From contig NZ_WPCA01000008.1 in assembly GCF_009741825.1 (NCBI RefSeq), positions 1 to 42,880 of the forward strand: a DNA stretch of 42,880 nucleotides, written 5' to 3'. The position numbers and the translations under genes were made by a program. This document shows positions 1,082 to 19,295 of this stretch, piece by piece. The notes below the pieces were generated by a model. The model saw nothing but the letters and a program-made list of their open reading frames with translations. It did not search any database and was not told the DNA's origin. Positions within the stretch are counted from its first letter, which is position 1. Each line of letters begins with the position of its first letter. This DNA comes from Halapricum sp. CBA1109 (GTDB taxonomy: Archaea > Halobacteriota > Halobacteria > Halobacteriales > Haloarculaceae).

Positions 1082-2002
1082 ATGGGTGCAGGATCGCTCC
1101 GTCGACGTATTCGGGTCATCGCGTACAAGGCGTACCTCGCCGGCTGGTATCCGTTCACCTCGCGCGTCCCGATCGGAACGAACGTCTACGAGCGCGAGTG
1201 GGACGCGCTGTTGTTACTCGACACCTGCCGAGTCGATGCGCTCCGGGCCGTCGCCGACGAGTACGACTTCCTCGGCGCGGTCGAGTCGATGGTATCGGTC
1301 GGTAGCACGTCGTCCGAGTGGATAGCGAACACGTTCCGGGAGCGGTACCGCCCGGAGATAGCCGAGACAGCCTACCTCTCGGCGAACGCCTTTTCGAAGC
1401 GTGTCATCGAGGACCGTGATTTCCCCGGGGACCGACTCCCCGTCGCTTGGACGACTGTCGACGCCACGGCGTTCGGTCTGCTCGACAACGCTTGGCGATA
1501 CCAGCCGGAAACGCCGTACAAGCACATGCTCGCGGAACATCTCACCGACCGAGCCATCGCTGTCGGCCGTGACCGCGATCCGGGCCGTCTCATCGTCCAC
1601 TACTCACAGCCGCACGCACCGTACATCGCCGCCGCGAGAGCCGCCAACCGTGACCTAGAACCACACGAACGGGACCCCTTCGAAGAACTCAGAGCGGGTC
1701 GTGTCGACCGCGAGACCGTCTGGAACGCCTACCTCGACAATCTACGGATGGCTCTCGACAGTGTCGCGGTGTTGCTTCGGAACCTCGACGCCGAGACGGT
1801 TGCGATCAGTGCCGACCACGGCGAGGCCTTCGGTTCTTGGGGAGCGTACAACCACCCCGCCGGATCACTCCATCCACACGTCAAACGAGTGCCGTGGGCG
1901 ACGACGACTGCCACCGACGAGGGTGGGCACGAACCGAAAATCGACCGCCCTGAACCACAGCGCGACGTCGAGAGTCACCTCGACGCACTGGGTTACCGGT
2001 AG
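1082..2002 (+). CDS. Small sulfatase-like (alkaline phosphatase superfamily) protein, 306 aa
   Basis: A compact AP-superfamily protein without signal peptide or membrane segment. The N-terminal metal-binding strand reads LLLLDTCRVDAL (about residue 42), the presumed nucleophile segment VGSTSSEW follows about 35 residues later, the mid-protein motif is YSQPHAPY, and the C-terminal metal site is SADHGEAFG. It lacks the C/S-x-P-x-R formylglycine motif of true sulfatases, so phospho- or sulfo-ester chemistry by a Ser/Thr nucleophile is more likely; the substrate is unknown. It ends HLDALGYR, a tail shared with six other AP-fold proteins here. Its close relatives in this window are the genes at 14367-15272 and 18394-19295. 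The last 10 nt overlap the convergent gene ending at 1993. Confidence 0.85.
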   Translation: MGAGSLRRRIRVIAYKAYLAGWYPFTSRVPIGTNVYEREWDALLLLDTCRVDALRAVADEYDFLGAVESMVSVGSTSSEWIANTFRERYRPEIAETAYLSANAFSKRVIEDRDFPGDRLPVAWTTVDATAFGLLDNAWRYQPETPYKHMLAEHLTDRAIAVGRDRDPGRLIVHYSQPHAPYIAAARAANRDLEPHERDPFEELRAGRVDRETVWNAYLDNLRMALDSVAVLLRNLDAETVAISADHGEAFGSWGAYNHPAGSLHPHVKRVPWATTTATDEGGHEPKIDRPEPQRDVESHLDALGYR

Positions 2003-2589
2003 TCGCGCAACGCTCGCCCCAGTGCCGTTCCGATGTCATCGTCCGCACGGATCGCGTCGAGGCAGACGACCATTCCGTAGCCGGTGTACAGCGTTCCGAC
2101 GAGCACGAGCAGCGATATCGGCTCCATCAGGAGCCGCGACGAGTAGAAGATGTCTAACGGGAGGATGACGACGACGAAGGCCGTCGCAATGCCCGCACGC
2201 TCCGAGTCGAACAGCGACCGAGCGGCCAGTCCCATCGCCGGGACCGTGGCCAGCACGGCCGCCAGCAACGCGAGGTTCGGCCCCGACTGCCCGAACACGA
2301 GATAGAACAGCGCCATAACGAGTTCGACGCCCAGATGCTCCAGTTCGCTCACCGCCAGTGACCCCTCCAGTGCGATCCGTTCCACGTCGGCGAGATAGAT
2401 CGCACTGTCGTCGTGTGACGGCGTGAGCGTCGCATACGGGACGCGGGCGACGACCGCGAGCGCCACGGCCCCGGCGTACGCCGCCACTAGGCGACGCCTG
2501 CCTGCGAACCGCTCGCCGGCAGTGACCGCCCCCACGAGGCCGAGTGAGAGGAGCCCAACCCACCAAATCGGGCCGACAGCTATCTGCAC
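1993..2589 (-). CDS. Short multi-spanning membrane protein, probably a truncated GT39/PMT-like glycosyltransferase
   Basis: The 198 residues hold about six hydrophobic segments (near 5-22, 33-50, 87-103, 106-127, 135-155 and 157-175). Between segments 2 and 3 is an acidic loop, SHDDSAIYLADVERIA. An Asp pair in the first external loop followed by this helix pattern resembles the N-terminal half of GT39-like dolichyl-phosphate-sugar mannosyltransferases, which are usually 400-600 residues. The C-terminal half is absent and the frame ends in a hydrophilic tail (GTALGRALRDYR) overlapping the end of the neighbouring sulfatase-like gene by 10 nt. It is therefore either a decayed remnant or a small stand-alone membrane protein. 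The GTG at 2589 has a TATA-like box 22-30 nt upstream. Confidence 0.55.
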   Translation of the reverse strand: MQIAVGPIWWVGLLSLGLVGAVTAGERFAGRRRLVAAYAGAVALAVVARVPYATLTPSHDDSAIYLADVERIALEGSLAVSELEHLGVELVMALFYLVFGQSGPNLALLAAVLATVPAMGLAARSLFDSERAGIATAFVVVILPLDIFYSSRLLMEPISLLVLVGTLYTGYGMVVCLDAIRADDDIGTALGRALRDYR

Positions 2590-2610
2590 GGTAGCCGTTC
2601 ACGGAGCCGC

Positions 2611-2619
2611 GAAAATAAG
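2611..2619 (-). promoter_or_regulatory. TATA-like box of the membrane protein gene at 2589
   Basis: CTTATTTTC on the minus strand, 22-30 nt before the GTG at 2589. It shows that the truncated gene still has a plausible leaderless promoter. Confidence 0.45.
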
Positions 2620-2643
2620 TGTTCCCGACGCGGTGATCAGTTG

Positions 2644-2651
2644 GATTTTTG
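2644..2651 (+). promoter_or_regulatory. TATA-like box of the GT4 gene at 2676
   Basis: GATTTTTG, 25-32 nt before the ATG at 2676, on the opposite strand from the box at 2611-2619. The 86-nt gap is thus a divergent promoter region. Confidence 0.4.
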
Positions 2652-2675
2652 TTCGCGGCCCGTCGATCAGGGGTA

Positions 2676-3870
2676 ATGCGGATCCTGTTCGCTCCCGGTA
2701 TCTTTCCACCAGACGCCGGCGGCCCGGCGACGTTCGTTCCCGACATCTCGACGGAGTTCGACCGACGCGGCCACGAGACACTCGTCGTGACCAACGGTGA
2801 TCCGGCCCCGTCGGTGGACGAGGAGTTCCCCTTCGATGTCGTCCGCGTCCGCCCGGACCCAGCGCTGACCCGGTATCCGCGGCAGTTGCGAACGGTCGTC
2901 GGTACCGCTCGGTCGTTCGACCCCGACGTGATATTCGCCAACGCCTTCGACTGGCCCGCCGTCGTCGCCGGGACGCTCACCCGGACGCCGGTCGTGGTGA
3001 AGGTCGTCGGCGATATGGCGTGGGAGCGTGCCAAGGTCCGGTACGATGTGACCGACGACATCGAAGCGTTCGCGCGGCGGCGGTACGGCCCCCGGGTCGA
3101 ACTCCATCGGGCCGTCCGAACCGCACAGACTCGCGGTGCCGACCACGTCGCCGTGCCCAGCCACTACCTGAAGAACCTCGTCGCCGGTTGGGGCGTCGAT
3201 GCCGACGACATCACGACGATATACAACGCCATCGACACCGGCGCTATCACGGAGACGGCGACGGGCGAGAGCAGCGACATCGTCACAGTCTGCCGGCAGG
3301 TCGAGTGGAAGGGCGTCCGGGGATTGATCGACGCCGTCGCCGCGGTGGCTGACAGCGTACCGGACGCGACGCTGCACGTGATCGGTGACGGGCCACACCA
3401 GCAGCGCTTCGAACGCTACGCCGCCCGAACGGTCGATGCCGACCGGGTCGTCTTCCACGGGCGGGTCCCACACGACGACGTCCTCGAACACGTCGCCGAC
3501 AGTCGGGTGTTCGCCCTCAACTCGACGTACGAGGGGTTGCCCCACGCTGTCCTCGAAGCGATGGCCTGTGGCACGCCTGCAGTCGTCTCCGACGCCGGCG
3601 GCAACCCGAGTGGTCGCCGACGGGGAGTCGGGGTTCGTCGTCCCGCAGGGTGACGCCGACGCCTTCGCCGACCGGTTCGAGCAGTTGCTGACCGACGACG
3701 GGTTGTGGATACGGTTCCACGAGGCGAGCCAGTCGCGGTTGGCCTCCCACTTCGATCAGGAACGGATGTACGACGAGTACGAGGCCCTGCTCCGGGGCAT
3801 CATCGACGGCGACGAGACGATGGTCGAGACGTTCGCCGAACGGCAGCACAGCGAGGGCGGCCAGCGATGA
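2676..3870 (+). CDS. GT4-family glycosyltransferase with a frame break near 3608
   Basis: The N-terminal domain begins MRILFAPGIFPPDAGGPATF, a classic GT4 acceptor-domain start. The second domain includes IVTVCRQVEWKG and the EX7E element EGLPHAVLEAMACGTPAV near residue 285, then SDAGGNP. Immediately after NP (CCG at 3606-3608) the expected EVVADGESGF continues only in the next frame, from GTG at 3610. Two bases are missing or one is extra. The downstream frame then runs in good family sequence (VPQGDADAFADRF) to the TGA at 3868-3870. The repaired length is about 397 residues, normal for GT4. The stop overlaps the next start as ATGA, so the two GT4 genes are translationally coupled. The break sits in a short C/G-rich stretch and may be a sequence error. 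Confidence 0.85.
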
Positions 3871-5027
3871 CCATCCAGTACGTCGCCAACGCACGGATCC
3901 CGAGCAGGAAAGCCCATCCTTACCAGATCGTCCAGATGTGTGCGGGCTTCGAGGCGGCGGGCGAAGACGTCGAACTCGTCGTCCCCGACCGCCGTCACGG
4001 TCGGAACGCGGTCGACGGCCCGGCCGAATCGTACTTCGATACGCGGATAAGCTTCGACATCACGAAACTTCGCTGTATCGACTTCATATACACCCTCGAC
4101 CGGTTGCCGTCGGCCTTCGGACTCCCCATCTTCTACCTACAGGCCCTGACGTTCAGTCTGGCTGCCCTGTGGCACGTCCTCCGGGGGGAGCAGGCGGACC
4201 TAATCTATACGCGGTCGCTGCTCTTTGCCCTCCTCTGTAGTATCGTCCTGCCAGACCGTACCGTCGTCGAACTCCACCAGTTCCCCTCTAGGCGGTGGGT
4301 CGCTCGCCTCCTCGGGCGGCGGTTCGAGCGGCTCCGCGGCGTCGTCACCATCTCCGAAGGGCTCCGCCGGGAGTGGGACCAGGCCACCGACGCCGACATC
4401 GTGGTCGAACCGGACGGTGTCCGCCTCGACCGGTTCGACGCCGATGTCGACCGGAGCGCCGTCCGAGGTGAGCTTTCGACGGCCGAGGACCGGTTCGTCG
4501 CCTGCTACGCCGGCAGCGTCAAGCCGTGGAAGGGTGTCGACACGCTCGTTCGGGCGGCGGCTACGCTCGAGGATGTCGACGTCTGGGTCGTCGGCGGCAC
4601 CGACGACCAGTTGGCGTGGCTCCGGGAGACGGTCGGCTCGGTTCCGGGGTCGGTCACGCTCGTCGGCCACGTCCGGCCCGAGGCCGTGCCGCGGTATCTC
4701 GCCGCCAGCGACTGCCTCGTCCTCCCGAACACCGCCGACAGCGACATCTCCTCGCGGTACACCTCGCCGCTGAAACTGTTCGAGTATATGGCGGCCGGCC
4801 GTCCCATCGTCGCATCCGACCTGCCGTCGATCCGTGAGGTCCTCGACGAGGAGTCGGCGTTCTTCTTCGACCCTGACGACCCCGCGTCCCTCGCGGCGTG
4901 TCTCCGCACGGTTCGGGACGGCGACGATGCCGACGACCGCACGGCGGCGGCTCGAAACCGCGTCGAGCGCTACACGTGGACCGCCCGCGCCGAGCGCATC
5001 CTCGACCGATACGCGTCGGGGCGGTGA
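3867..5027 (+). CDS. GT4-family glycosyltransferase, 386 aa
   Basis: Starts MTIQYVANARIPSRKAHPYQ, where the segment RxPSxKAHPxQ is characteristic of a GT4 subgroup found in archaeal and bacterial surface polysaccharide clusters. The C-terminal donor domain has CYAGSVKPWKGVD near residue 213 and SRYTSPLKLFEYMAAGRPIV near residue 297, replacing the canonical EX7E with a K-x-x-E version seen in the same subgroup. The ATG overlaps the TGA of the upstream GT4 (ATGA), so the pair probably acts in sequence on one glycan. It ends 9 nt before the convergent sulfatase-like gene. No signal peptide is visible; it is expected to be cytosolic or membrane-peripheral. Confidence 0.9.
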   Translation: MTIQYVANARIPSRKAHPYQIVQMCAGFEAAGEDVELVVPDRRHGRNAVDGPAESYFDTRISFDITKLRCIDFIYTLDRLPSAFGLPIFYLQALTFSLAALWHVLRGEQADLIYTRSLLFALLCSIVLPDRTVVELHQFPSRRWVARLLGRRFERLRGVVTISEGLRREWDQATDADIVVEPDGVRLDRFDADVDRSAVRGELSTAEDRFVACYAGSVKPWKGVDTLVRAAATLEDVDVWVVGGTDDQLAWLRETVGSVPGSVTLVGHVRPEAVPRYLAASDCLVLPNTADSDISSRYTSPLKLFEYMAAGRPIVASDLPSIREVLDEESAFFFDPDDPASLAACLRTVRDGDDADDRTAAARNRVERYTWTARAERILDRYASGR

Positions 5028-5036
5028 AGCCGCCGC

Positions 5037-6412
5037 TCAGAGGTAGCCCATATCGGAGAGGTGTTCGCGCATCGCTTCGGAGTAGTCGCCCTCCTCGCCA
5101 CCGGTCGGTCCCGGTCGTGGTCGTCTAGCCACGCCCGGAGGGTCGCCGCGAGTCGGTCCGTCAGGTCGGGGTCGTCACCGCTCCGGTCCGTCGTCTGGTC
5201 GGGCAGTTCGAACAGTTCGGTCCTCCCGTCGCTGTCGTGCAGTCGGTAGTCGGCGGTCCGGAGCGCACTCACGTCCCCGAGGTGGAACGGGGCGATGTCG
5301 AAGTCGGGGTTGTGCCTGTGGTACGGTTCGAGGTCGGTCTCGTGGTCCTGACTGACCACGAACTCCCGGGGTGGTGCCGACAGCGGCCGCCCCTCGAACC
5401 CGGTGGTGTCACCGCCGACGCGGTCCAGTATCGTCTCCATCACGTCCGCGTGTTGGACGAGGCGGTCGTCGGCCACGTCGTCGAGTCCGCTCGTGACCAT
5501 CGGGACGCGCGTGAGTTCGTCCTTGAGAACGAACTTGTGCCCCAGCAGTCCGTACTCGCCGAACAGTTCCCCGTGGTCTGCGGTGACGACGACGACCACC
5601 TCGCGGTCGTCCATCCCCTCGACGGCCGCCAGCAACCGCCTGACACACTCGTCGGTGTACCGTATCTCGGCGTCGTACATCGCCCGCAACGCGTCCAGTT
5701 CGTCCTCGCCGAGGGTGTGGCCCGTCGCGATGAACCGCTCGACGTTCTCGTGGACGTGCATCGAGAACTCACCCGCGTCGGCGGCGGACATCGATAGGTC
5801 TCCGGTGTACCGGTCGCGGTAGGACAGCGGCGGATAGTACGGCCTGTGTGGTTCGTTGTAGTGGGCGTAGAGGAAGACCGGATCGTCGCCGTCGCGGAGC
5901 CACCGTTTGGCGCTCCCGTTGAGGAGATACGCTGTCGCGTGGCGGTACTTGTCGAACGTGACGCCAGCGGAGTGGCGACGCAGATTCACGAGAAAACCCG
6001 CGAGCGCCCGCCACGGTACCGACCGCAACATCGTTGAGGGGTGGATCCACGTGAACTCGTCGAACCCTCTGTCCAGTCCCGTTTCGGGGCTGACGTACCG
6101 GTTCGAGGAGAAGCCGCCGGTCCGATAGCCCAGCGCACCGAATCGTTCCGGTACCGACGGGATGTCCTCGGGAAGTGTCCGGTGGTCGTACCCGAGACCG
6201 TTCGAGGTGGGGTACGTGCCCGTCAGCATCGACGCCGTCGACGTGAGCGTGTACTTCCCGTGGGCGAAGCAGTTCGGGAGGTACTGCCCGTCGGCCCGGT
6301 CGGCCAGTGCGGCGACGTTCGGCGTCGTGTCCCGTCCGTACCCGTCCATCGTCGTGTGGTCGGCCCGCACACTGTCGAGCGTGATCCAGACGACGTGGGG
6401 CCGTTCGTCCAT
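5037..6412 (-). CDS. Sulfatase-like AP-superfamily protein, about 458 aa, frame break near its C terminus
   Basis: Begins MDERPHVVWITLDSVRADHT, so the metal-binding Asp strand is at the very N terminus with no signal peptide. The nucleophile region is AHGKYTLTSTASMLTGTYPT, with Thr where sulfatases carry Cys/Ser-x-Pro-x-Arg. Further motifs are HYNEPHRPYYPP and the metal site VVTADHGELFGEYGLLGH. The original frame runs past the natural end into arginine-rich sequence, whereas the adjacent frame from about 5096 reads GGEEGDYSEAMREHLSDMGY and stops at 5037-5039. That ending matches the LGY-type tail of its paralogues, so one base is probably missing between 5096 and 5110. Adding it gives an integral 459 codons. 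The promoter lies at 6437-6444. Substrate is unknown. Confidence 0.85.
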
Positions 6413-6436
6413 ACCGTGGCAGTAGTTGGGGAGCGG

Positions 6437-6444
6437 TACAAATA
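6437..6444 (-). promoter_or_regulatory. TATA-like box of the sulfatase-like gene at 6412
   Basis: TATTTGTA on the minus strand, 25-32 nt before the ATG at 6412. Confidence 0.5.
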
Positions 6445-6490
6445 GCTGTGCGTCGATGGATAAATGACACCGAGTTGTCCGACCGTGGGA

Positions 6491-6498
6491 TACTTTTC
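6491..6498 (+). promoter_or_regulatory. TATA-like box supporting the start at 6519
   Basis: TACTTTTC ends 21 nt before the ATG at 6519. Its centre is about 25 nt upstream of 6519 but only 19 nt upstream of the in-frame ATG at 6513, so 6519 is favoured. Confidence 0.35.
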
Positions 6499-6518
6499 AT
6501 TCGACAGCTTATATGCTG

Positions 6519-7774
6519 ATGGTGCCTCCTGTCGTTCTCCTCTCGGTAGACTCACTGCGATATGATCGACTTTCCGAGGAGTATTTCCCCGAGTGTATGC
6601 CGATGTTCGAGACAGACTTTGCCTCTTTCACCAACTGCTACTCCCACGGTGTTGCGACACCCTTCGCGTTCCCCGGGATCATCAGTGGGGCCCTTTCCAG
6701 CGACGACTGTACCCTCCCCACTGACCAGCCTACGATTGCAGAACAGATAGCTATTGAGCGAACGATAGCGTTCACCAACAACGGCCATCTTCGTCCGGGT
6801 CGTGGATACAATCGTGGTATCGAGACATTCGATTGGGCCAAACCACCGACTGGAGTCCACCCGATTCGCCGGTTGAAAGAGATCGACCTTCTTCGACGAA
6901 TTCCACTCGTCCCGGCGCTGTACCATCTTCTAGTGGGGGCGTACCGTGACACGTCTAACTACACCGGGTCGAGTGAGTACCCGATTCCCTATGAAACCGC
7001 AGACACTGTGACGGATTTTGCCATAGAGAATCTTACCAGTCAGGAGACGTTCCTCTGGCTCACTATATGGACCCCCATACGCCGCATCATCCTGATAGTG
7101 CAGTCGATATCCCAGAGATATCACACACCGACGATGAACTCCGAGAGATAAACGACCGATTTACTGACGGGCGTCGTGATGGCCTCAGCGATGCGGAGAT
7201 GTCGCTCGCCACTACACTGTACGACGCGAACGTCAGATATCTCGACAGAGAACTCGCGCGTCTGCTTCGATGGCTACGACGACAGCCGTGGTACAGTGAT
7301 GCTCTCATCGCTATTGTCTCCGACCACGGCGAGTTGCTCGGTGAATATGGTCTGACCTTCCATCCGTGGGGGGCTGACCCACACGATGAACTAGTGCGAA
7401 CTCCTCTCTTGGTCAAATATCCGAACGGCGACCACGCTGGCAGTTCGTACGATCACTTGACTGGCCACCGAAACCTCTACTCGACGCTCACGTCCAACAG
7501 CAACTCGCCCTCTAATAGCATTCCTTGCCTCACAGAGGCTACCGATCAACGTATCGTTTCCCTCTCCAACGGAGCAGTTCGGGTCACCGAGAAGACGGGT
7601 TATCTCGTTGGGACCCGAGACGGTACTGTCCGAACCGAGGGGACTGTCTCATCTGAGGCACGGGAAGTCGCGAACAAAACGGCGCTCCCGGTATGTCAGA
7701 ATATGAGTGGTGAGAAACCCGGTGTCGACACACAGCAGATGGAAGACCGTCTCGAAGCACTTGGATACAAGTAA
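6519..7774 (+). CDS. Sulfatase-like AP-superfamily protein, about 418 aa, split by a one-base loss near 7061
   Basis: The N terminus MVPPVVLLSVDSLRYD carries the metal-binding Asp. The nucleophile region is SHGVATPFAFPGIISG (Thr in place of the sulfatase Cys/Ser motif). The first frame reads correctly to ETFLWL (7061) and then derails. The next frame, starting with the tyrosine codon just before ATG 7067, gives MDPHTPHHPDSAVDIPE and continues to IVSDHGELLGEYGLTFHPWG and the tail RLEALGYK. One C inserted between 7061 and 7062 restores LHYMDPHTP, the H-Y-x-x-P-H motif of its paralogues, in a single 419-codon frame. The gene is noticeably more A+T-rich than its neighbours. It is divergent from the paralogue at 6412. 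An alternative start is ATG 6513. Confidence 0.85.
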
Positions 7775-7843
7775 CCAATAGCGAGGGGATTCGCCGTCGA
7801 GCATCACGCTAAAGATTGTCGGCCACCTCTGGAGTGATATACC

Positions 7844-9382
7844 GTGCATCGGACACCCTCTGTCATCACTATCGGCCTCGACGGAGCAACGTGGCGGCTC
7901 CTCGACCGGTGGGTCGACGACGGGACGCTCCCGAATCTCGCCGCGTTGCTCGACCGGGGCGTCCGTTCCGACCTGCGGAGCTGTCACCCGCCGGTCACTT
8001 CCCCGAACTGGAAGTGTCTCTCGACGGGTCGAAATCCCGGTGCCCTCGACGTCTACTGGTGGGAGGTGCTCACCGAGACGGCCGACGGCTACGAGATATC
8101 CCGTCCGACCTCGACGTCCTACCGGCAACCCGAACTGTGGGACTACCTCGGGCACAACGACATACTGAGCGCCGTCGTCAATATGCCGACGACGCACCCG
8201 CCGACGGACATCTCAGGCGTGATGGTTTCCGGAGGGCCCAACGCCGAGGAACAGGGGTTCACGACGCCGCAGTCGCTCGAATCGACGCTCCGGGAACGCT
8301 ACGACTACCGGTGTCTGCCACGCCGGTTGTCGCTCCTCGGTGACGGCGACGAGGCGGCCGTCGAGGAGGCTATCGACCTCGTCGGAACTCGCTTCGAGGT
8401 GGCCGAACACCTCGGCCGTACCAGAGACGTCGACTATCTCAACGTGACGGTGTATCTCAGTAACGTCTTCCAGCACTTCTTCTGGGACGGGCCGGCGACC
8501 GAGGCCCTCTGGCGGCGTATCGACGACGGTATCGGACGGCTGGTCGAGACGTTCGAGGACGCGACCTTCCTCCTCGCCTCCGATCACGGCAGCAACGAGA
8601 CGGACCTGAAGTTCTACATCAACCTCTGGCTGGCCGAACAGGGGTATCTCGAGACCACCGGGTCGGACGCGACAATCGGACCGATGTTGTACCGACTTGG
8701 CTTACACCGGGATCGGCTGTCGGCATTGGCAACGAAAATCGGCGTTAAATCCGCTCTCAAACGGCTACTGAGCCGTGACGTCATCGACAGCGTTCCGACG
8801 AAGACGGGGTCGGTCAGGCTGGAAGGAAAAAACGACCGTATCGACTGGGAGGCGTCCGACGCCTTCGCCTTCGGGCAGGGGCCGGTGTACGTCTTCGACG
8901 ACGACAAGCGCGAGGAAATAAAGGCCGCACTGGCCGACCTGACACACGACGGCAAGCACATCGCCAGTACCGTCCACGACGGGGCGGATGTCTACTCCGG
9001 CCCCTACGCCGAGACGGCCCCGGACCTCGTCATCGAACAGAACGAGGGCGTCCACATCTCGAACTCGCTCGGCGACGAGGATATCTTCGTCGACCCGGAC
9101 CACTGGCGGGCGGAGAACGAGATGACCGGTATCTTCGCCGCCGCCGGCCCGGACATCGACACGGACGTCCCGCTGGACACCGTCTCTATCCTCGATTTCG
9201 CCCCGTCCGTGCTGGCGCTTCTCGACACGCCGGTCGCCTCGTCGATGGAGGGGACTGTCCTCCCCGTGGTCGACCGTCCGGACGTCAGTTACGCCTCTTA
9301 CGACTTCGACGCGCGGTCCGACACCGCGGTAGAGGGGGACCGGACGCGGGAGCGACTGTCGGACCTCGGCTACCTCGAATGA
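7844..9382 (+). CDS. Type I phosphodiesterase/nucleotide-pyrophosphatase-like AP-superfamily protein, 512 aa
   Basis: The N terminus (PSVITIGLDGATWRLLD) and the following PPVTSPNWKCLSTGRNPG belong to the phosphodiesterase/pyrophosphatase branch of the AP superfamily; the Thr in PVTSPNW is the predicted nucleophile. FLLASDHGSNE is the C-terminal metal site. It differs from the other AP-fold proteins in the window by this GLDGAT start, but it shares their tail (RLSDLGYLE). The family hydrolyses or transfers phosphodiesters and pyrophosphates such as nucleotide-sugars or lipid-phosphates; the true substrate here is unknown. The start is GTG at 7844. Its stop overlaps the deacetylase start as ATGA, so the two products probably act on the same molecule. 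No signal peptide is visible. Confidence 0.88.
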   Translation: MHRTPSVITIGLDGATWRLLDRWVDDGTLPNLAALLDRGVRSDLRSCHPPVTSPNWKCLSTGRNPGALDVYWWEVLTETADGYEISRPTSTSYRQPELWDYLGHNDILSAVVNMPTTHPPTDISGVMVSGGPNAEEQGFTTPQSLESTLRERYDYRCLPRRLSLLGDGDEAAVEEAIDLVGTRFEVAEHLGRTRDVDYLNVTVYLSNVFQHFFWDGPATEALWRRIDDGIGRLVETFEDATFLLASDHGSNETDLKFYINLWLAEQGYLETTGSDATIGPMLYRLGLHRDRLSALATKIGVKSALKRLLSRDVIDSVPTKTGSVRLEGKNDRIDWEASDAFAFGQGPVYVFDDDKREEIKAALADLTHDGKHIASTVHDGADVYSGPYAETAPDLVIEQNEGVHISNSLGDEDIFVDPDHWRAENEMTGIFAAAGPDIDTDVPLDTVSILDFAPSVLALLDTPVASSMEGTVLPVVDRPDVSYASYDFDARSDTAVEGDRTRERLSDLGYLE

Positions 9383-10230: not shown

Positions 10231-10246
10231 CCGCTAGGCCTCCGAC

Positions 10247-11312: not shown

Positions 11313-11364
11313 ACGTCGTCGGTTATCCGGTGTAAACCGCCCGGGTCGAAAACCCTGTCGGCGG

Positions 11365-12489
11365 TCACCGCTCGACGGTCGCCCGGACCGACTCGACGTA
11401 CGCCACGCGCAATCGCTCGCGGTCGAACCGTTCTTCGAGGGCGTCCCGCGCCGCCGTTCCGAACCGCTCGCGCTCATCGGACCGTTCCAGCAGCCACGTG
11501 ACCCGGTCGGCTAACCCCGTCACAGAGGACTTCACGAACCCCGTCTCGCCGTCGGCGACGTTGTCGTGCGCCCCGGCGAACGGCGTGGCGACGACGGGCA
11601 GTCCGTTCATCCCCGCCTCGACGACGACCCGTGAGGTCCCCTCGTAGTTCGAGGTGATGAGGAACACGTCCGCACAGGCGTAGTACTCGCCGACGGTCTC
11701 CGGATCGACCCACCCGGTGAACACGACGTCGTCACCGAGGCCGGCGTCTTCGACCGCCGATTCGACGGCGTCGCGCCGCGGTCCGTCCCCGACCAACACG
11801 AACACGGGGTCGCGGTCGCTTCGCTCCCGAACCCTCGCTGCCACGTCGACCCACGTCCCGAGGTCCTTCGCGGCGACGAACCGCCCGACGAACAGCACGA
11901 CCGGTCGCTCGCCGAGGCCGTACTCCGACCTGACAGTCGAGTCCGCTGTGACGACACTGTCGAAGTCCATCGACACCGGGACGACATCCACCGGTACGTC
12001 CGCGGGGACGAACGCTGCCATCTTCCGCCGTTCGTACTCCGTCCCGACCCGCACCGCGTCCGAGCGTGGGACGACGAACCGCCCGAGGCGGTCGAACACT
12101 CGATGTTCCAGTGACTCGCCGACCCACGCCGGGTTGTCCAGAAAGTCCGTGTGGACCTGCGTGTGCAGAGCGAGGTCGAACCGTCTACTCAACAGCCACC
12201 CGACGAGTCCGACGGCGAAGGGGTCCTGTACGGTCACCACGTCGACGTCTTCGCGCTTGCAGTATCGCGCCCCGAGACGGTAGGCGTCCAGCAGGTAGTG
12301 ATACCGGGTCCGCGAGGCAGTCGGAGCGACGGTCAACGGCCCGTCGGTGTGTCCGGTGGCCGTATCGGAGTCTGTCTTCGTGACCACGTAGTAACGGTCG
12401 AACTCCTCGGCGTACTCCCGTTGGCGCTGCCACGGTTCGCTCCCTCGCTCGGCGATGGCCGCGTCTAGACTCAACGAGAGGACGTGCAC
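11365..12489 (-). CDS. GT4-family glycosyltransferase, 374 aa
   Basis: The N terminus is MHVLSLSLDAAIAERGSEPW. The middle segment DVVTVQDPFAVGLVGWLL is typical of the acceptor domain, and the second domain has VVLFVGRFVAAKDLGTWV, then NYEGTSRVVVEAGMNGLPVV with the EX7E pair intact. The length is normal for GT4. The GTG at 12489 is chosen because a TATA-like box (12511-12518) lies 22-29 nt upstream. It is followed after 52 nt by a second GT4, suggesting consecutive sugar additions. The product is soluble or membrane-associated, with no predicted transmembrane helix. Confidence 0.9.
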   Translation of the reverse strand: MHVLSLSLDAAIAERGSEPWQRQREYAEEFDRYYVVTKTDSDTATGHTDGPLTVAPTASRTRYHYLLDAYRLGARYCKREDVDVVTVQDPFAVGLVGWLLSRRFDLALHTQVHTDFLDNPAWVGESLEHRVFDRLGRFVVPRSDAVRVGTEYERRKMAAFVPADVPVDVVPVSMDFDSVVTADSTVRSEYGLGERPVVLFVGRFVAAKDLGTWVDVAARVRERSDRDPVFVLVGDGPRRDAVESAVEDAGLGDDVVFTGWVDPETVGEYYACADVFLITSNYEGTSRVVVEAGMNGLPVVATPFAGAHDNVADGETGFVKSSVTGLADRVTWLLERSDERERFGTAARDALEERFDRERLRVAYVESVRATVER

Positions 12490-12510
12490 ACGGACCTTTC
12501 GACGGTGCTG

Positions 12511-12518
12511 TACAAAAA
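12511..12518 (-). promoter_or_regulatory. TATA-like box of the GT4 gene at 12489
   Basis: TTTTTGTA on the minus strand, 22-29 nt before the GTG start. Confidence 0.45.
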
Positions 12519-12601
12519 TGGCTTCGGGACCCCCCGCTCGGAGACGACGGTCGAATCAGGTTGGCTTCGACCGTATCACCCCTCATTTCGACTGCACGAC
12601 A

Positions 12602-14314
12602 CTACTTCTCGACGATGATGTCCTCGATGACCAACACGTCCAACCCCATCCCGTAGAAGTCCCGAACTGCTTCCTTCGGCGTCGTCACTATCGGTTCCCC
12701 GTGGTCGTTGAACGACGTGTTTAACACAGCGGGCACGCCCGTTATGTTCTCGAACTCGGAGATAAGACCGTGGTACCGCGGGTTCTGTTCCTCGGTGACC
12801 GTCTGGGGGCGGGTCGTGGTATCCCCCGGGTGGACGACCGCCGCGAGGTCCTCCCGTCGTTCGGGGACGGTATCGAACGTCTGTATCATATAGGGAGACG
12901 CCTCGTCGTCGACGAGGTAGTCCGACGCGGCCTCGGCGAGTATCGACGGCGCAAACGGCCGCCACTCCTCCCGGTTTTTCACGTACCGGTTCACCCGGTC
13001 TCTCGACGTTGCCGTGCGCGGGTCCGCGAGGATGCTTCGATTCCCCAGCGCCCGGGGTCCCATCTCTTGGCGGCCCTGCATCCATCCCACCAGATCACCG
13101 TCCGCTATCCGCTCGGCAGTGTATCGCTCGACATCTTCCCTTCGCGTGTACGATAGCTTGTTGTTTTCGAGGAGCGTCGTGACGGTCTCTGTGTCGGGTG
13201 ATTCCCCCCAGTACACGTCTCGCATCGGTTCGACTGACTGCGGATCGGTCTCTAGCCACCCCGCGCCGAGAGCGAGGCCGGCGTCGTGTGCGACCGGTTG
13301 GATGAAGAGGTTCTCGACGGGATCCGTCTCTCTCACCCGCTTGTTCATCTTGCAGTTCAGTGCGACCCCACCCGAGAGCGCGACGTCGTGGATGCCCGTC
13401 CGGGTGGTGTGGCGTCGAACGAGTCCGCTGACGGTCTCCTCTAGGAGTTTCTGGGCTGTGTGTGCCAGATCCTTCTCGAACTGTTGGAACTCCTCCCCGC
13501 GTTGTTTCGCCGGTCGGTCGAACAACTCCTCGAGGGAGGTGACGCCCGCTTCGATGCCGTTCGACGTGAGTGTACGCACGTCGTAGTCGGGACCGAAATC
13601 GGCGACGCTCCGGAGACGGGACTCTATCGTGTCGTTTCGCTCCCCGTACGGCGCGAGTCCCATTATCTTCCCTTCACCGTTGAACGACTCGTAGCCAAGG
13701 TATTCGGTTACGATCCCGTAGAAGTGCCCCAGACTGTTGGGATGAGCAAAGGTTCGCCGCCGTTCGAGTCCGCTCTCGGACCCGGTCCAGACGACCGTCG
13801 AGTCGAACTCGCCCCGCCCGTCCATCGTGATCACGACAGCGGTATCGAACGGACTCGGATGAAACGCGCTCGCCGCGTGACACAGGTGGTGTGATCGATG
13901 GTTGATCGGCGGTATCGGGGACCCGATTGCCTCGAGTTCACTCCTCACTTTCTCGTCCGGAAAGAACTGATCGCGCACGACGTCCTTCGCTCGGGAGACG
14001 ATGTTCCACCCACGTATCCCGAGGTGGGACTGCTCCGACACGGTACTCTTTAGGTCGTGCCGTAACCGTTTGTGGTGCAGTTCCGGATCGTACGGCAGTA
14101 CGACCTTGTGGACGTCCGGAAGGGAGATGTCCGCATACCGAAGGGCGGCGCGAATCGCGTTCCCCGGAAACGACCCCGGCGCGTGTTTGTCCCTCGTGTA
14201 TCGCTCCTCTTCGGCCCCAAACAATAGCCGTCCGTCGTCGAACAGCGCGACACTCGGGTCGTGGTAGCCGTACGGGCCGATTGCGGGTTTACACGCGAGC
14301 GTATATTTTGACAC
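12602..14314 (-). CDS. O-carbamoyltransferase (NodU/CmcH/TobZ family), 570 aa
   Basis: The N-terminal Kae1-like domain has GYHDPSVALFDDGRLLFGAE, then INHRSHHLCHAASAFHPSPF with the metal-binding HxxxH pattern, MDGRGEFDST, and NGEGKIMGLAPYG. The nucleotide-binding element is DVALSGGVALNCKMN. The C-terminal YrdC-unrelated domain has GRQEMGPRALGNRSILADPR and NTSFNDHGEPIVTTP. All of these are hallmarks of enzymes that make carbamoyl-adenylate from carbamoyl phosphate and ATP and transfer the carbamoyl group to a hydroxyl, often of a sugar. In this locus the likely acceptor is a glycan residue. The GTG start at 14314 follows a TATA box at 14337-14343. The full family length is present and no damage is visible. 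Confidence 0.93.
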   Translation of the reverse strand: MSKYTLACKPAIGPYGYHDPSVALFDDGRLLFGAEEERYTRDKHAPGSFPGNAIRAALRYADISLPDVHKVVLPYDPELHHKRLRHDLKSTVSEQSHLGIRGWNIVSRAKDVVRDQFFPDEKVRSELEAIGSPIPPINHRSHHLCHAASAFHPSPFDTAVVITMDGRGEFDSTVVWTGSESGLERRRTFAHPNSLGHFYGIVTEYLGYESFNGEGKIMGLAPYGERNDTIESRLRSVADFGPDYDVRTLTSNGIEAGVTSLEELFDRPAKQRGEEFQQFEKDLAHTAQKLLEETVSGLVRRHTTRTGIHDVALSGGVALNCKMNKRVRETDPVENLFIQPVAHDAGLALGAGWLETDPQSVEPMRDVYWGESPDTETVTTLLENNKLSYTRREDVERYTAERIADGDLVGWMQGRQEMGPRALGNRSILADPRTATSRDRVNRYVKNREEWRPFAPSILAEAASDYLVDDEASPYMIQTFDTVPERREDLAAVVHPGDTTTRPQTVTEEQNPRYHGLISEFENITGVPAVLNTSFNDHGEPIVTTPKEAVRDFYGMGLDVLVIEDIIVEK

Positions 14315-14336
14315 ACTACGAATGAGCGAGATACTT

Positions 14337-14343
14337 CATATAA
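14337..14343 (-). promoter_or_regulatory. TATA box of the carbamoyltransferase gene
   Basis: TTATATG on the minus strand, 23-29 nt before the GTG at 14314. The gene therefore has its own leaderless promoter within a co-directional gene run. Confidence 0.55.
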
Positions 14344-14366
14344 CTCTGGTGGGCGACCACGGACGT

Positions 14367-15272
14367 TCACTCGTCGTAGCCGAGGTCCCGTAGCCGCTCT
14401 TTGATCACGGAGAAGTCAGTCGCGTCATCGTCCTCGACCGGTGGCTCCGCGACGATCCGCCGGCGGTCGCCGGACTCGTAGACTAGCCACGGCACTTTGA
14501 CGAGTTCCTCGACGTAGGTGCCGTGGGGATGTCCCCACATTCGGACCGGGATCGGAAAGCTCCGTTCGCCCAGCAGATGCCCGTGGTCGGCGGTGACGAC
14601 CGTCTTCCCGTCCAGAGCGGTCAGTAACTCCCGGACGTGTGGAATCGCACGACGGAGGTTGTTCTCGTAGGACTGTCTGAGGTCTGCAGCGGTGACGTCT
14701 ATCTCGTCGCGGACGTACTGCTTGTATGGGTTTCCGTCCCGTTCGAGCGCTTCCGTCGCCGGGTCGATGAACGGGAGGTGGGGCTGTGTGTAATGGATCA
14801 GCAGGCGCTTGTTCGGATACGTCGCCGCCGCCTGCAGTGCGTGTTCCGTCGTCGTCTCCGGGAGGATACAGTTCCGGCCGTCCTCGGCGGTCCAGAAGTT
14901 GTCGAGGTCCTCCCACAACCGAACCACCTTGTGGAAGTGTATCTCGGACTCGTCGACGACCCGGTGTAACTGCGGTGTCGCGGTCACGTAGATGGTGTCC
15001 GTGAGGTCACGACCCGCTATCGCCGACCGAACGAACTCGCTCGTCATCGACCCGAGGGACTGTCGGGACTCCAAGCGGCCCGGCAGGCCATCGACTCGTT
15101 CGAGATAATCGTACCGACACGCGTCGAGGAGGACGAGAGTGTCCCAGTCTTCGTCGAAGAAGTTGGTGCCGTCGGGGTTCTGACGGCGTGTATACAGGCG
15201 TGTGTGGTAGGCGCGGTTACACCGCTCGATCCACTTCTTGACGGCTGCGGCGAGCGGCCCTTTCTCTATCAT
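14367..15272 (-). CDS. Small sulfatase-like AP-superfamily protein, 301 aa
   Basis: Clear relative of the genes at 1082 and 18394. It has the metal strand TLVLLDACRYDYLERV, the nucleophile segment LGSMTSEFV, the YVTATPQ motif, HYTQPHLPFI, and the C-terminal metal site VVTADHGHLLGE. The protein ends RLRDLGYDE. It starts MIEKGPLAAAVKKW with no signal peptide. It is much shorter than ordinary sulfatases (450-550) and lacks the formylglycine motif, so calling it a sulfatase would be misleading; it is best described as a Ser/Thr-nucleophile AP-fold enzyme of unknown substrate. It is preceded by another AP-fold gene (57-nt gap) and followed by the carbamoyltransferase gene (52-nt gap). Confidence 0.87.
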   Translation of the reverse strand: MIEKGPLAAAVKKWIERCNRAYHTRLYTRRQNPDGTNFFDEDWDTLVLLDACRYDYLERVDGLPGRLESRQSLGSMTSEFVRSAIAGRDLTDTIYVTATPQLHRVVDESEIHFHKVVRLWEDLDNFWTAEDGRNCILPETTTEHALQAAATYPNKRLLIHYTQPHLPFIDPATEALERDGNPYKQYVRDEIDVTAADLRQSYENNLRRAIPHVRELLTALDGKTVVTADHGHLLGERSFPIPVRMWGHPHGTYVEELVKVPWLVYESGDRRRIVAEPPVEDDDATDFSVIKERLRDLGYDE

Positions 15273-15329
15273 CCGGAGATTCGTCTCAACACTGCAGGCA
15301 GACGTATTTCACTGTGGCGGTGGCGACTC

Positions 15330-16775
15330 TCATTCGAGATATCCCAGATCACGGAGGTTTGACCGGGAGCCAGCGTCGAGTTCAACGTTCTCGTCTCCAG
15401 TCTTGAAGGTCGGCGACAACGTCTCGAACAGTCGGTCTCGGAGCCGAGAGACGACACTCTCTTCGGGATCTTCGACCCGTTCGTCAGACGGTTGTCTGTA
15501 CAAGAACTCTTCCCCGGCGGAGGTCACGACGAACCGGTACTGTTCGGTGCGTATCTGTTTCCGTCCGACCCGGAACTGCTCGTACCTTTCCGAGGACATA
15601 TACTTCGTGTGCCCTCCTTGTTCCTCGTATCGTGAGCCGTATTCGGCGAAGACGGCGTCCCGTTTCCCCGTGTCGAACATCGACTGCCCGTCGGTTGTCC
15701 CGGGGGCATCGATCCCCGTGAGATCACACACTGTCTCGAAGAGATCGACCAGCGACACGAGATCGGATCGCCGCTCCCCCTCGGGAACACCCGGACCAGC
15801 GATGACCAACGGGACGTGCAGTACCTCGTCGTGGAGCAAGTGGCTGTGGACGATGAGACCGCGTTCTCCGAAGTTCTCACCGTGGTCCGACATAACGACG
15901 ACAATTGTATTCTGTGTATTGTTCTCGATCCAGTCTAGGAACGTTCCGAGGACGTCGTCGAAGTACTTGATTCCTGCCCGGTACCACCTCCTGAGTATGT
16001 CCATCTCGCTGTCGTTGAGGTACGACGGGTCGGCGAGATACTGCGCAATCCCGTCTGTGGTCTGTGCGTCGTACAGCCGATCCGAACGGACGTTCTCGGC
16101 GACGACACGCTCGTCGCCGAAGAGATGTTCCAGCACGTACCAACGGGGTCGTCGTAGTTCCGGCGTCGCGGTCTCCTTGTACGGTCGTGGTGGGTTGTAC
16201 GGCGTGTGTGCGATGGTCGTGTTGAGCAGAGCGAAAAAGGGAGACGTCAGTTCGCGCTCGATTTTCGACTGCAGGATGTCGAACTTCAACTGCGTGAGAG
16301 AGTCCGGCCCGCGGAAGGCCGTTCTGAGGAAATCACGCAGCAACGGTCCCCTGAGGGTGGGATCTCTGAACAGCGTCGAGAGATAGGAGGTCGATAGCTT
16401 CGGCGGTTTGTCCCCGGTGTACGTCTCGAAATACTCGTCGAAACCGCGGTCGTAGCCGTACGCCGAGCCCATCTTTGCCGGACCGGGGATACCGAACGTA
16501 TCGTAGCCGGCATCGGCGAACCACTCTCCGAGTACGGGAGTGTCCGCCGGGAGCGCATTGGCTCCGAGGACACCTGATCGAGACGGGTACTGACCGGTGA
16601 AGATACCGCCGTGAGATATCGACGTGTTCGGACCGACAGCGTACGCGTTCTCGAACAGCGTTCCTCGTTCCGCGAGTGATTCTATCGCGGGCGTCGCCGT
16701 TTCACCACCGTAACAGGAGATGAAATCCGGCCGCACGGCGTCGGCGATCAGTACGACGACGTTCGGAGCGTCCAT
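15330..16775 (-). CDS. Sulfatase-like AP-superfamily protein, 481 aa
   Basis: Begins MDAPNVVVLIADAVRPDF with the metal Asp at residue 12. The nucleophile region AVGPNTSISHGGIFTGQYPS has Thr or Ser in place of Cys-x-Pro-x-Arg. The sequence continues NTTIAHTPYNPPRPY, then VVVMSDHGENFGERGLIVHS with the DHG metal site, and ends SNLRDLGYLE. The length matches the usual sulfatase fold and there is no signal peptide, so a cytosolic location is inferred. The ATG at 16775 lies 43 nt after the stop of the flippase gene, so the two are probably co-transcribed. That position suggests modification of a glycan or lipid-linked precursor before or during export, but the substrate is not evident. Confidence 0.9.
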   Translation of the reverse strand: MDAPNVVVLIADAVRPDFISCYGGETATPAIESLAERGTLFENAYAVGPNTSISHGGIFTGQYPSRSGVLGANALPADTPVLGEWFADAGYDTFGIPGPAKMGSAYGYDRGFDEYFETYTGDKPPKLSTSYLSTLFRDPTLRGPLLRDFLRTAFRGPDSLTQLKFDILQSKIERELTSPFFALLNTTIAHTPYNPPRPYKETATPELRRPRWYVLEHLFGDERVVAENVRSDRLYDAQTTDGIAQYLADPSYLNDSEMDILRRWYRAGIKYFDDVLGTFLDWIENNTQNTIVVVMSDHGENFGERGLIVHSHLLHDEVLHVPLVIAGPGVPEGERRSDLVSLVDLFETVCDLTGIDAPGTTDGQSMFDTGKRDAVFAEYGSRYEEQGGHTKYMSSERYEQFRVGRKQIRTEQYRFVVTSAGEEFLYRQPSDERVEDPEESVVSRLRDRLFETLSPTFKTGDENVELDAGSRSNLRDLGYLE

Positions 16776-16818
16776 ATGTCTCCGACGGACGGCAGCGAGC
16801 AATTTCTTTCTGTCGGCA

Positions 16819-18264
16819 TCACCCACCCACGAACCGCCGAACGAGAGCGATATCCTGCTTCGACACGACCCCCGTCCCGTACAGAGCTCCGAAGTACAGT
16901 GTGGCACTCGCCGAGACGACAACCACGACGGAAAGCAGTCCTTGGGCGAACTGCTCTACTGTGAGTACGAACCCTGTCATCGCTACGGCGGGGATACCGA
17001 ACCTAACTACCCCGCTGGGAGTCGGTAGGTCGCTCGTAACGTATCGTGTCTGGTACCACAGGCCGACGACGAGGATTGTACACTGCTGTACTGCGTATCC
17101 CGCCGCGACGAGTGTGATGGATCCGAAGAGCGCTCCGAGAGCGACGGTACCCAACAACAGTCCCGATGCGACGGTGTACGTCAGTGTGTCCAGTAGAGCG
17201 TCGTCACGGGCGACGAAGACCGGTGAGGCCGGAACTGCGAGCGTCTGGAGTCCGAACGCGATCAGAAAGGTCGCGGTTGTCAACTCACTCAGACGGTACT
17301 GGGGACCGAAGACGGCCCCAACTATCTGTGTCCCGAGGAGACTGCCACCGACGACCATCGGAACCACGAGGACCGTGGCGAATCGGTAGTACCGGGTGAG
17401 CAAGTTGTCGATTCCCTCCCCCTCGTCCAACCGCTTGCTCAACTTCGGGAGGAGCATCGTCGAGAACGGGCGACTGAACAGCTGAAACACCGTCGAAAAC
17501 GTGAACAGCACCGACCACCCGCCGAAGACGGCCGTCCCGAACGCCGAGATGACGACAGCGTCGGGCACTTTCCCCTGTGCCTGCTTGACTACCGTCTGCG
17601 GGGCGAGTGGGAGCGAGATAGCCCGTGCCGACGACCACAGGCCACGAAAGTCCGGTCGGGCGAACAGCACCGACGAGAGTCGCCACAGGAGAATCGCTAT
17701 CGAGAGCCCCCGAGCGACGACGTACAGTCCGAGTGCGACCGGTGCGGTCAACAGACTGGTGAAAAATAGTCCCACTACTGCCAACAAGAAGACAACTTCC
17801 GAAACGAGGACGGCCCCGCTGTAGAGATCGAATCGATCCAGTGACTTCGACAGTGTCAGGCCGAACTGGTACAGAGCAGTCGTCGCGACGAACAGACAGA
17901 CGACGAGGACGTTCGACCGAATGAACTCGAAAATCCCGGGGGCGACCCAATCGAAGACACCCGATACGCTGACGGCGACGACGACGAGTACCGAGAGGCC
18001 GACGAAGGCCCCAAGCGTCGCCGCTGCGGCCGCGACTAACGATGCTTGGTCGTCAGCCGTCATCTCCGGGAGTCGCTTCTCGACCAATGTCGAGAGGTTC
18101 AGGATACCCCTGATAGTGAGGACGAGCGACGATACGACAAAGACCGATCGGTAGAGTCCGAAACTGGACGGTGTCAGTGCCCGTGTCAGCAACGGCACGG
18201 TGACGAACGATGCCCCGCGTGCAACGGTTTCGGCGACTGATACTCGACGGAGGTCCTGAAGCAT
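16819..18264 (-). CDS. Wzx/RfbX-type polysaccharide flippase (MOP superfamily), 481 aa
   Basis: A strongly hydrophobic protein with roughly twelve to fourteen membrane segments. The N terminus MLQDLRRVSVAETVARGASF followed by VPLLTRALTPSSFGLY is the usual start of the polysaccharide-transporter family, where an A-L-x-P-x-x-F-G-x-Y element closes the first helix. Charged loops such as LSKRLDEGEGIDNLLTRYYR separate the helices. Such proteins move lipid-linked oligosaccharides across the membrane. It is the first gene of a minus-strand run (flippase, two AP-fold genes, carbamoyltransferase, two GT4 genes). It faces the 18394 gene divergently; no convincing TATA box was found for this side of the 129-nt gap. 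Confidence 0.88.
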   Translation of the reverse strand: MLQDLRRVSVAETVARGASFVTVPLLTRALTPSSFGLYRSVFVVSSLVLTIRGILNLSTLVEKRLPEMTADDQASLVAAAAATLGAFVGLSVLVVVAVSVSGVFDWVAPGIFEFIRSNVLVVCLFVATTALYQFGLTLSKSLDRFDLYSGAVLVSEVVFLLAVVGLFFTSLLTAPVALGLYVVARGLSIAILLWRLSSVLFARPDFRGLWSSARAISLPLAPQTVVKQAQGKVPDAVVISAFGTAVFGGWSVLFTFSTVFQLFSRPFSTMLLPKLSKRLDEGEGIDNLLTRYYRFATVLVVPMVVGGSLLGTQIVGAVFGPQYRLSELTTATFLIAFGLQTLAVPASPVFVARDDALLDTLTYTVASGLLLGTVALGALFGSITLVAAGYAVQQCTILVVGLWYQTRYVTSDLPTPSGVVRFGIPAVAMTGFVLTVEQFAQGLLSVVVVVSASATLYFGALYGTGVVSKQDIALVRRFVGG

Positions 18265-18363
18265 TGTCTGAGGCTGCCTCTTGGCTTTGCGCGTTAGTCT
18301 TGTCGACTACGTATCAACTACACACAATATCGACCGTATCGGCCTATCAAATTCGCTAACACA

Positions 18364-18371
18364 TAAATATA
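18364..18371 (+). promoter_or_regulatory. TATA box deciding the start at 18394
   Basis: TAAATATA, 23-30 nt before the ATG at 18394. It argues against the in-frame GTG at 18373. Confidence 0.6.
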
Positions 18372-18393
18372 GGTGCGATCAATATCTGGACTG

Positions 18394-19295
18394 ATGATCG
18401 GCTCCAAGTTGCGGAGCGCAATCAATCTCTACTCGGAAGGCGGCGTACGTAGGGTCACAGATGGAATTTCTACGGCCGCACGACGCGAGTTCAACGACAT
18501 TTTTCGCCCGGGAACTCCGATATACGAACTCGACTGGGACCTCATTATCGTCTTGGACGCCTGTCGGGCTGATCTGCTTCAGTCTGTCGCCTCTCAGTAC
18601 AGCTATCTAAATACTGATACCGTCTACTCGGTCGGGACCAAGACAACCGAGTGGATGGGGAAGAACTTCACCGAACGATTCCGTAACGATATGGAGTCTA
18701 CTGCGTACGTTTCAGCTAATCCGAACTCGGACAAGTTTGTTTCCAGCGACGATTTCGCTATCTTGGACGAACTGTGGCGATACGCTTGGGACGACGACAT
18801 CGGCACCGTCCATCCGCGCTCTGTGACGGACAGAGCGATCAATATACATCGGACTCACACACCCGACAAGATGATCGCCCACTATATGCAGCCACACGAG
18901 CCGTTTTATCAAAAGATAAACACGGGTCCTGCATACGAAAATACCCACCGTCAGAAGGATCTATCTGGGATAAACTGGACGAAGGCACAGTAGCACACCA
19001 AGAAGTCTGGGACTCCTACAGGGAAACCTTGCTGATCGTCTTGGAGTACGTCGACCTCCTCCTCGAAAACGTCGATGCCAACGAGGTTCTGATAACGTCG
19101 GACCACGGCAACGCGATGGGTGAATACGGTTACTACGGGCATCCACGCTGGACACCGATCAAGTCCCTCAAAGAGGTACCGGCGGTCCGTACGTCGGCTA
19201 CCGATTCCGGCGAATACGAACCTTCTACCGAGCGTACAGAGGGCGGCAGTAATCAAGATATAGAGGAACGACTCCGGGACCTTGGATACCTATAA
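18394..19295 (+). CDS. Small sulfatase-like AP-superfamily protein, about 300 aa, split by a one-base loss near 18957
   Basis: Third member of the small AP-fold family. It has DLIIVLDACRADLLQ, the nucleophile segment VGTKTTEWMGKNF, AYVSANPNSDKF, and HYMQPHEPFY. After THRQK the first frame runs to a premature stop at 18991-18993. The next frame gives GSIWDKLDEGTVAHQEVWDS, then LITSDHGNAMGEYGYYGHP and the tail ERLRDLGYL. Adding one G at 18957-18958 merges both parts into 301 codons, equal in size to the two intact paralogues. Its base composition is A+T-richer than the genes to its left. No signal peptide is visible. Confidence 0.83.

Follow-up and report, generated by a model that had tools for sequence, protein, structure and literature searches.

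Seven alkaline phosphatase-superfamily genes in a haloarchaeal surface-glycan island are candidate sulfotransferases and share a C-terminal tail with sulfate-activating enzymes

Contig NZ_WPCA01000008.1 of Halapricum sp. CBA1109, a haloarchaeon of the same order as Halobacterium, carries seven genes of the alkaline phosphatase (AP) superfamily within a surface-glycan island. The contig (C193 here; 42,880 nt, referred to below in its entirety as the window) belongs to a genome of 2.97 Mb in 266 contigs, with 79% completeness. Besides the AP genes, Pfam recognizes GT4 and GT2 glycosyltransferases, two flippases, a NodU-type carbamoyltransferase, a sugar epimerase, dehydrogenase and aminotransferase, and deacetylases. 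The initial annotation picked out the seven AP genes, and all seven are indeed present, within the first 19.3 kb. By type, three are short (1082, 14367 and 18373), three are long and match PF00884 (5037, 6513 and 15330), and one matches PF01663 (7844). The same genome encodes ~14 PF00884-type genes and ~8 short AP genes, spread over several clusters; hence, the AP genes in the window are not a chance occurrence.

The first short gene (1082..2002, + strand) encodes a 306-aa protein of the Agl30 (VNG1056C) type that ends in HLDALGYR (1976-1999). The second (14367..15272, − strand; 301 aa) ends in RLRDLGYDE (14370-14396) and matches the short-family profile at 7e-85. The third (18373..19295, + strand; 18394 in the initial annotation) is split by a frameshift into 18373-18993 and 18774-19295, which match the same profile at 7e-65 and 7e-44; it ends in RLRDLGYL (19269-19292) and is 48% identical over 135 aa to a paralogue on contig C56 of the same genome. 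Pfam matches for these three genes are sub-threshold only. Among the long genes, 5037..6412 (− strand) is of the VNG1063H type and matches PF00884 at 4e-38; its C-terminus, EHLSDMGYL (5040-5063, stop at 5037), lies in another frame. The gene at 6513..7774 (+ strand) is split into 6513-7151 and 7067-7774, the second piece of which matches PF00884 at 2e-13 and ends in RLEALGYK (7748-7771). The third long gene (15330..16775, − strand; ~481 aa from an ATG at 16775) matches PF00884 at 4e-41 and ends in NLRDLGYLE (15333-15359). Lastly, 7844..9382 (+ strand) encodes a 512-aa protein with the motif PVTSPNW that matches PF01663 at 6e-32 (111.9 bits, above the Pfam cut-off of 23). It ends in RLSDLGYLE (9353-9379) and is 41% identical to a copy on contig C223 of the same genome, which is likewise tailed. 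Frameshifts thus affect three of the seven genes in the assembly: 5037, near its end, 6513-7774 and 18373-19295. The short and long families are related to each other in a profile comparison (E 9e-19), with their PHxPY, DHG and GH motifs aligned. None of the AP genes in the window has a PF13469 sulfotransferase domain according to Pfam.

Residue alignment bears out the active site that had been proposed, with an N-terminal metal-binding Asp and a DHG motif in all seven genes, and Ser or Thr rather than formylglycine at the nucleophile position. For 1082, 5037, 6513, 7844, 14367, 15330 and 18373, respectively, the metal Asp is D47, D13, D13, D13, D50, D12 and D62, and the nucleophile is S77, T55, T49, T52, T77, T51 and T91. 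Further aligned residues are H173, H178, D245, H246 and H258 in 1082; H189, D279, H280 and H292 in 5037; D229, H230 and H248 in 14367; and H190, D297, H298 and H310 in 15330. In 6513 and 18373, the DHG motif follows the Asp and Thr residues. The formylglycine motif C/S-x-P-x-R, which the initial annotation described as lacking, is absent from the nucleophile position throughout, but chance copies occur away from the site in 5037 (three) and 7844 (CLPRR); 15330 has none. Across 29 haloarchaeal relatives and the window genes, the short family retains LDACRxD, GSx[S/T]xEW, HYxQPHxP, DHGxxxGE, GHP and VPW; the Ser/Thr nucleophile, D47, H178, D245, H246 and H258 (1082 numbering) are conserved.

An AlphaFold (AF2) model of the 1082 protein has the AP fold (predicted local distance difference test [pLDDT] 84, predicted template modeling score 0.84), as the initial annotation anticipated. 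Its closest matches are the catalytic domains of EptA/MCR, followed by sulfatases (Foldseek E 5e-6, probability 1.0), with TM-scores of only ~0.5, which assign the fold and not its details. In the model, a helix begins with S77 and the first strand ends with D47, as is usual in the AP superfamily. A phmmer search of the PDB with 1082 gave no real match, and a phage structure library gave only weak AP matches, including a structural relative from Haloarcula hispanica tailed virus 1 that is annotated as a phosphodiesterase. A model of 7844 made with one relative reached a pLDDT of 37 and was not interpreted.

What do proteins of this kind do? In 2025, two AP-superfamily proteins of the Halobacterium salinarum agl cluster, VNG1056C (Agl30) and VNG1057C (Agl31), were shown to sulfate the N-linked tetrasaccharide; their deletion reduced N-glycan sulfation, and their expression in Hfx. 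volcanii conferred it (PMC11980604). Among the relatives considered here, sulfotransfer has been demonstrated only for these two (PMC11980604), and nuclear magnetic resonance identified GlcA(2S) and IdoA(3S) as the sulfated sugars (PMC13308652). We located both genes, and VNG1063H, on contig C17 of H. salinarum DSM 3754 (locus L119) from the features described in PMC11980604, namely the order and length of the genes, their Pfam profiles and a hydrophobic stretch spanning residues 21-39: Agl30 at 6392-7396, Agl31 at 4973-6355 and VNG1063H at 1125-2555. Within the compared set, 1082 and Agl30 are reciprocal best matches (46% over 300 aa), as are 5037 and VNG1063H (36% over 457 aa). The genes 14367 and 18373 are paralogues within the short family, at 32% to Agl30 for the former and 32-49%, in pieces, for the latter. 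No gene in the window is the reciprocal best match of Agl31, whose best match in this genome (38%) is on contig C198 (L129). The window genes resemble Agl30 and Agl31 in having the AP fold, no formylglycine motif, a setting among glycan genes and an LxxLGY end, and 5037 resembles VNG1063H in its LGY end also. Unlike the H. salinarum arrangement, the window groups three short paralogues with several long ones in a single island, with the Agl31 orthologue elsewhere. The window proteins had been described as lacking a signal peptide, which agrees with their N-termini as judged by eye, and as cytosolic. "Cytosol-facing" is the better wording, since Agl30 is membrane-associated (Agl31 is soluble; PMC11980604).

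All seven window genes, as well as Agl30, Agl31 and VNG1063H, end in an LxxLGY-type tail. In nearly every haloarchaeal protein of the short family, an acidic linker of variable make-up precedes the tail, which is conserved as strictly as the catalytic residues. Among the archaeal loci collected, it is present in 38 of 40 short proteins, 29 of 49 long proteins that are not formylglycine (FGly) enzymes, both PF01663 proteins and none of 11 FGly sulfatases. Proteins of other folds were first seen to have the tail in H. salinarum, for a CysD-like protein (L169:6929-7972), and in an adenosine 5′-phosphosulfate (APS) kinase; further loci were then collected as a fresh test. RLRDLGYM ends all 21 haloarchaeal CysD-like copies examined (L169, L222-L238), and in all seven Sat-linked APS kinases the kinase domain is followed by an additional tail that ends in LGY or MGY and, in one case, LGH. 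A tail on all APS kinases was rejected: a second PF01583 class (L208-L221), of ~300 aa or more and found in 13 haloarchaeal genomes, is untailed and has a common C-terminal stretch of its own. A classical PF00685 sulfotransferase (in L202) with LGY near its end was not counted because this stretch seems to belong to the domain itself. The folds of the CysD, CysN and CysC proteins are unrelated to the AP fold, and the AP proteins are proposed to consume activated sulfate rather than produce it.

The tail was also sought without regard to protein family, using a 21-base DNA pattern for RLxxLGY on four whole genomes. At the end of open reading frames (ORFs) of at least 150 aa, there were 29 matches, all of them in short AP, long AP, PF01663, CysD-like or APS kinase genes. 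Counts of the pattern against its reversed control were 25 versus 5, 15 versus 4, 8 versus 2 and 19 versus 14. Chance does not readily explain the extra tail of the APS kinases and this genome-wide exclusivity.

Genes of the tailed families are also neighbors. A virus-derived contig (L147) has the order cysD (tailed), cysN, PF01663, short AP (tailed). One haloarchaeal locus (L207) combines two tailed short AP genes, Sat, a tailed APS kinase and a tailed PF01663 gene; another (L206) has a tailed long AP gene, a tailed PF01663 gene, Sat and an APS kinase; and similar Sat/APS-kinase/AP clusters occur in L202 and L170. Overall, AP genes are found in four of the seven Sat-APS-kinase loci, within the 11-18 kb examined. 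Of 29 cellular short-family loci, 17 have a glycosyltransferase or flippase gene no more than 1.5 kb away according to crude profiles, and viral short-AP loci contain many genes for glycosyltransferases, sugar-nucleotide enzymes and methyltransferases. Several viral contigs (among L133-L157) encode minimal, untailed short AP enzymes of 230-250 aa, often beside glycosyltransferase or sugar-nucleotide genes. A viral scan with 15330 alone gave no match.

Which sulfate donor might such enzymes use? The short family is present in 219 of 243 haloarchaeal genomes (E 1e-30), with 1 to 9 copies each. A clear APS kinase (E below 1e-40) is found in only ~19 of the same genomes and Sat (PF01747) in 6; weak PF01583 matches near 1e-6 resemble other P-loop proteins. 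With these enzymes missing from most genomes, 3′-phosphoadenosine 5′-phosphosulfate (PAPS) was rejected as the general donor, and the donor in most of these haloarchaea is probably not PAPS made by the ordinary route. APS itself is only a guess. A CysD-like PF01507 protein is encoded in all 18 genomes tested; it scores below the CysD cut-off and retains the PP-loop GGKDS, the R-DE-R motif and a CysD-like end. Neither the tail on unrelated folds nor the missing PAPS route is described in the open-access literature that was searched.

The products of the seven genes are probably group transferases of the AP fold that face the cytosol, most of which would add sulfate to the sugars of lipid-linked glycans before flipping. 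The initial annotation had left open whether phospho- or sulfo-esters are added, moved or removed. Addition of sulfate is favored because of the homology to Agl30 and Agl31, the clustering with Sat, APS kinase, CysD and CysN, and the tail common to the sulfate-activating enzymes; phospho-transfer is possible for individual genes. The earlier view that the enzymes act on glycan precursors and are not formylglycine sulfatases is supported. The case for a predicted AP-fold glycan sulfotransferase is strong for 1082, 14367 and 18373 and weaker for 5037, 6513, 15330 and 7844. In the proposed mechanism, a single metal, bound by the N-terminal Asp together with the D-H pair, would activate the Ser/Thr, which would take or position the sulfo group of activated sulfate (APS or PAPS) and hand it to a sugar hydroxyl. 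Paralogues could each serve different positions or sugars, and the glycan would be flipped outward after sulfation, as with Agl30/Agl31 in H. salinarum. In the preferred reading, the tail would dock the transferases and the sulfate-activating enzymes to one another or to a shared partner, such that activated sulfate is handed over. That the tail serves this hand-over, in effect like a CysN-CysC fusion, is a serious possibility that falls somewhat short of an even chance. A more specific version, in which the tail is a tag dedicated to docking and assembles CysD-like protein, APS kinase and AP-fold enzymes into a sulfation complex, and in which APS or another carrier, not PAPS, is used through a Ser/Thr sulfo-enzyme in most haloarchaea, is rather doubtful.

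Several observations weigh against this interpretation. First, deletion of VNG1063H, the match of 5037, left N-glycan sulfation unchanged, with no role detected (PMC11980604); 6513, 7844 and 15330 are without a tested orthologue, and the Agl31 orthologue is outside the window. Second, neither Sat nor an APS kinase nor a PF13469 sulfotransferase is recognizable in H. salinarum (G075), whose CysD-like protein falls short of the CysD cut-offs; PF13469 is also absent from the Halapricum genome. Third, only 1082 has a good structure model. Fourth, the tail motif is post hoc, in that its statistics were collected after it had been noticed, and it is missing from 18 of 28 viral short enzymes. Because viral short enzymes often do without it, the tail is not needed for catalysis.

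It is also possible, if on the unlikely side, that the LGY tail belongs to AP-fold proteins in general or is a stability signal, unlinked to sulfation, with the copies on CysD-like proteins and APS kinases coincidental or an unrelated signal. The motif is short, E. coli CysD ends in GYF, such that the CysD tail may belong to the CysD fold, and the tail is also found on two small proteins and on a viral methyltransferase whose gene adjoins an AP gene. Against this stand its restriction to AP, CysD-like and APS kinase genes in the four genomes, its position after the kinase domain, its absence from FGly AP proteins and the mostly higher counts of the 21-base pattern than of the reversed control. 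The tailed methyltransferase (PF13578; L150:1980-2651, beside a short AP gene) may be another tagged glycan-modifying enzyme. Another viral contig that holds a short AP gene encodes a tailed protein without a Pfam match (L151:5489-6010).

Less probable still is that the genes encode phospho-, phosphoglycerol- or phosphoethanolamine-type transferases, or phosphodiesterases, that act on glycans or lipid carriers in the manner of LtaS, EptA or NPP. The Thr/Ser nucleophile and single metal site would suit such enzymes, the EptA/MCR phosphoethanolamine transferases are the nearest solved folds, and 7844 combines a PF01663 (type I phosphodiesterase/NPP) domain with an NPP-like Thr motif. However, the relatives with measured activity, Agl30 and Agl31, transfer sulfate (PMC11980604), and the Sat/APS kinase/CysDN clusters and common tail point the same way. 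LtaS and EptA transfer phosphate, face outward and have a membrane domain of several N-terminal transmembrane helices, whereas the 306- and 301-aa window proteins have at most one N-terminal helix. In contrast to type I phosphodiesterases/NPP, 7844 is tailed and lies among glycan genes, and a relative adjoins cysN in a viral contig.

Decay of the genes into partly non-functional copies, in a hypervariable glycan island, is improbable. Three of the seven are frameshifted, but motifs and tails persist on either side of each shift, and indel errors in the 266-contig assembly are the likely cause because an adjoining glycosyltransferase and the core-type gene glmS look shifted too. Broken frames in conserved genes of the window are at 2649-3653/3385-3870 (GT4), 5037-5090, 7067-7151 and 18774-18993 (AP), and 22375-22648 (glmS).

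Finally, it is very improbable that the proteins remove sulfate as sulfatases, using formylglycine made by another maturase or a Ser/Thr mechanism, since, despite the PF00884 matches of 5037, 7067-7774 and 15330 and the superfamily and DHG motif shared with formylglycine (S1) sulfatases, CxPxR is not at the nucleophile, no signal peptide was seen by eye, the formylglycine-generating enzyme (PF03781) was not found in this genome, five congeners or H. salinarum (the anaerobic maturase was not searched for), the untailed FGly sulfatases of other haloarchaea group apart, and loss of Agl30/31 lowers rather than raises sulfation (PMC11980604). Outside the window, a frameshifted AP gene of the same genome (L130:2097-3104, contig C117) has CMPSR, a true formylglycine consensus.

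The remainder of the island, as assigned by Pfam, holds further glycan genes. GT4 glycosyltransferases are at 2-970, 2649-3653, 3864-5027, 10179-11312, 11365-12489 and 20717-21874, and a GT2 enzyme is at 39052-40062. A polysaccharide deacetylase is at 9379-10230 and a further deacetylase at 31476-32396, the NodU-type carbamoyltransferase is at 12602-14314, and the two flippases are at 16819-18264 and 40868-42358. Also present are a UDP-GlcNAc 2-epimerase (19451-20692), a GlmS-like gene (22375-23847), a UDP-sugar dehydrogenase (29336-30988) and a DegT aminotransferase (33640-34890). The genome-wide tail pattern also led to a small protein of ~72 aa (27567..27785, − strand) with an acidic linker, the tail RLESLGYL (27570-27593), no Pfam match and an N-terminal part that looks ribbon-helix-helix-like by eye; it is possibly an adaptor or regulator. 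A similar 76-aa tailed protein (L122:17286-17570, contig C197 of the same genome) directly precedes a long AP gene.

What are the implications for haloarchaeal glycan sulfation? Sulfatase-like sulfotransferases of the AP fold were first demonstrated in 2025, with the donor, nucleophile and partner then lacking. To this are added a family that is near-universal in haloarchaea and present in virus-derived contigs, an ordinary PAPS route that is missing from most genomes, including that of H. salinarum, and one C-terminal tail common to transferases and sulfate-activating enzymes. Both the question of the donor and the possible existence of a sulfation complex can thereby be put to a direct test. 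In a superfamily whose annotation is poor, the tail also offers an inexpensive way to tell members that putatively add sulfate from those that remove it, and it may link the entire sulfation pathway.

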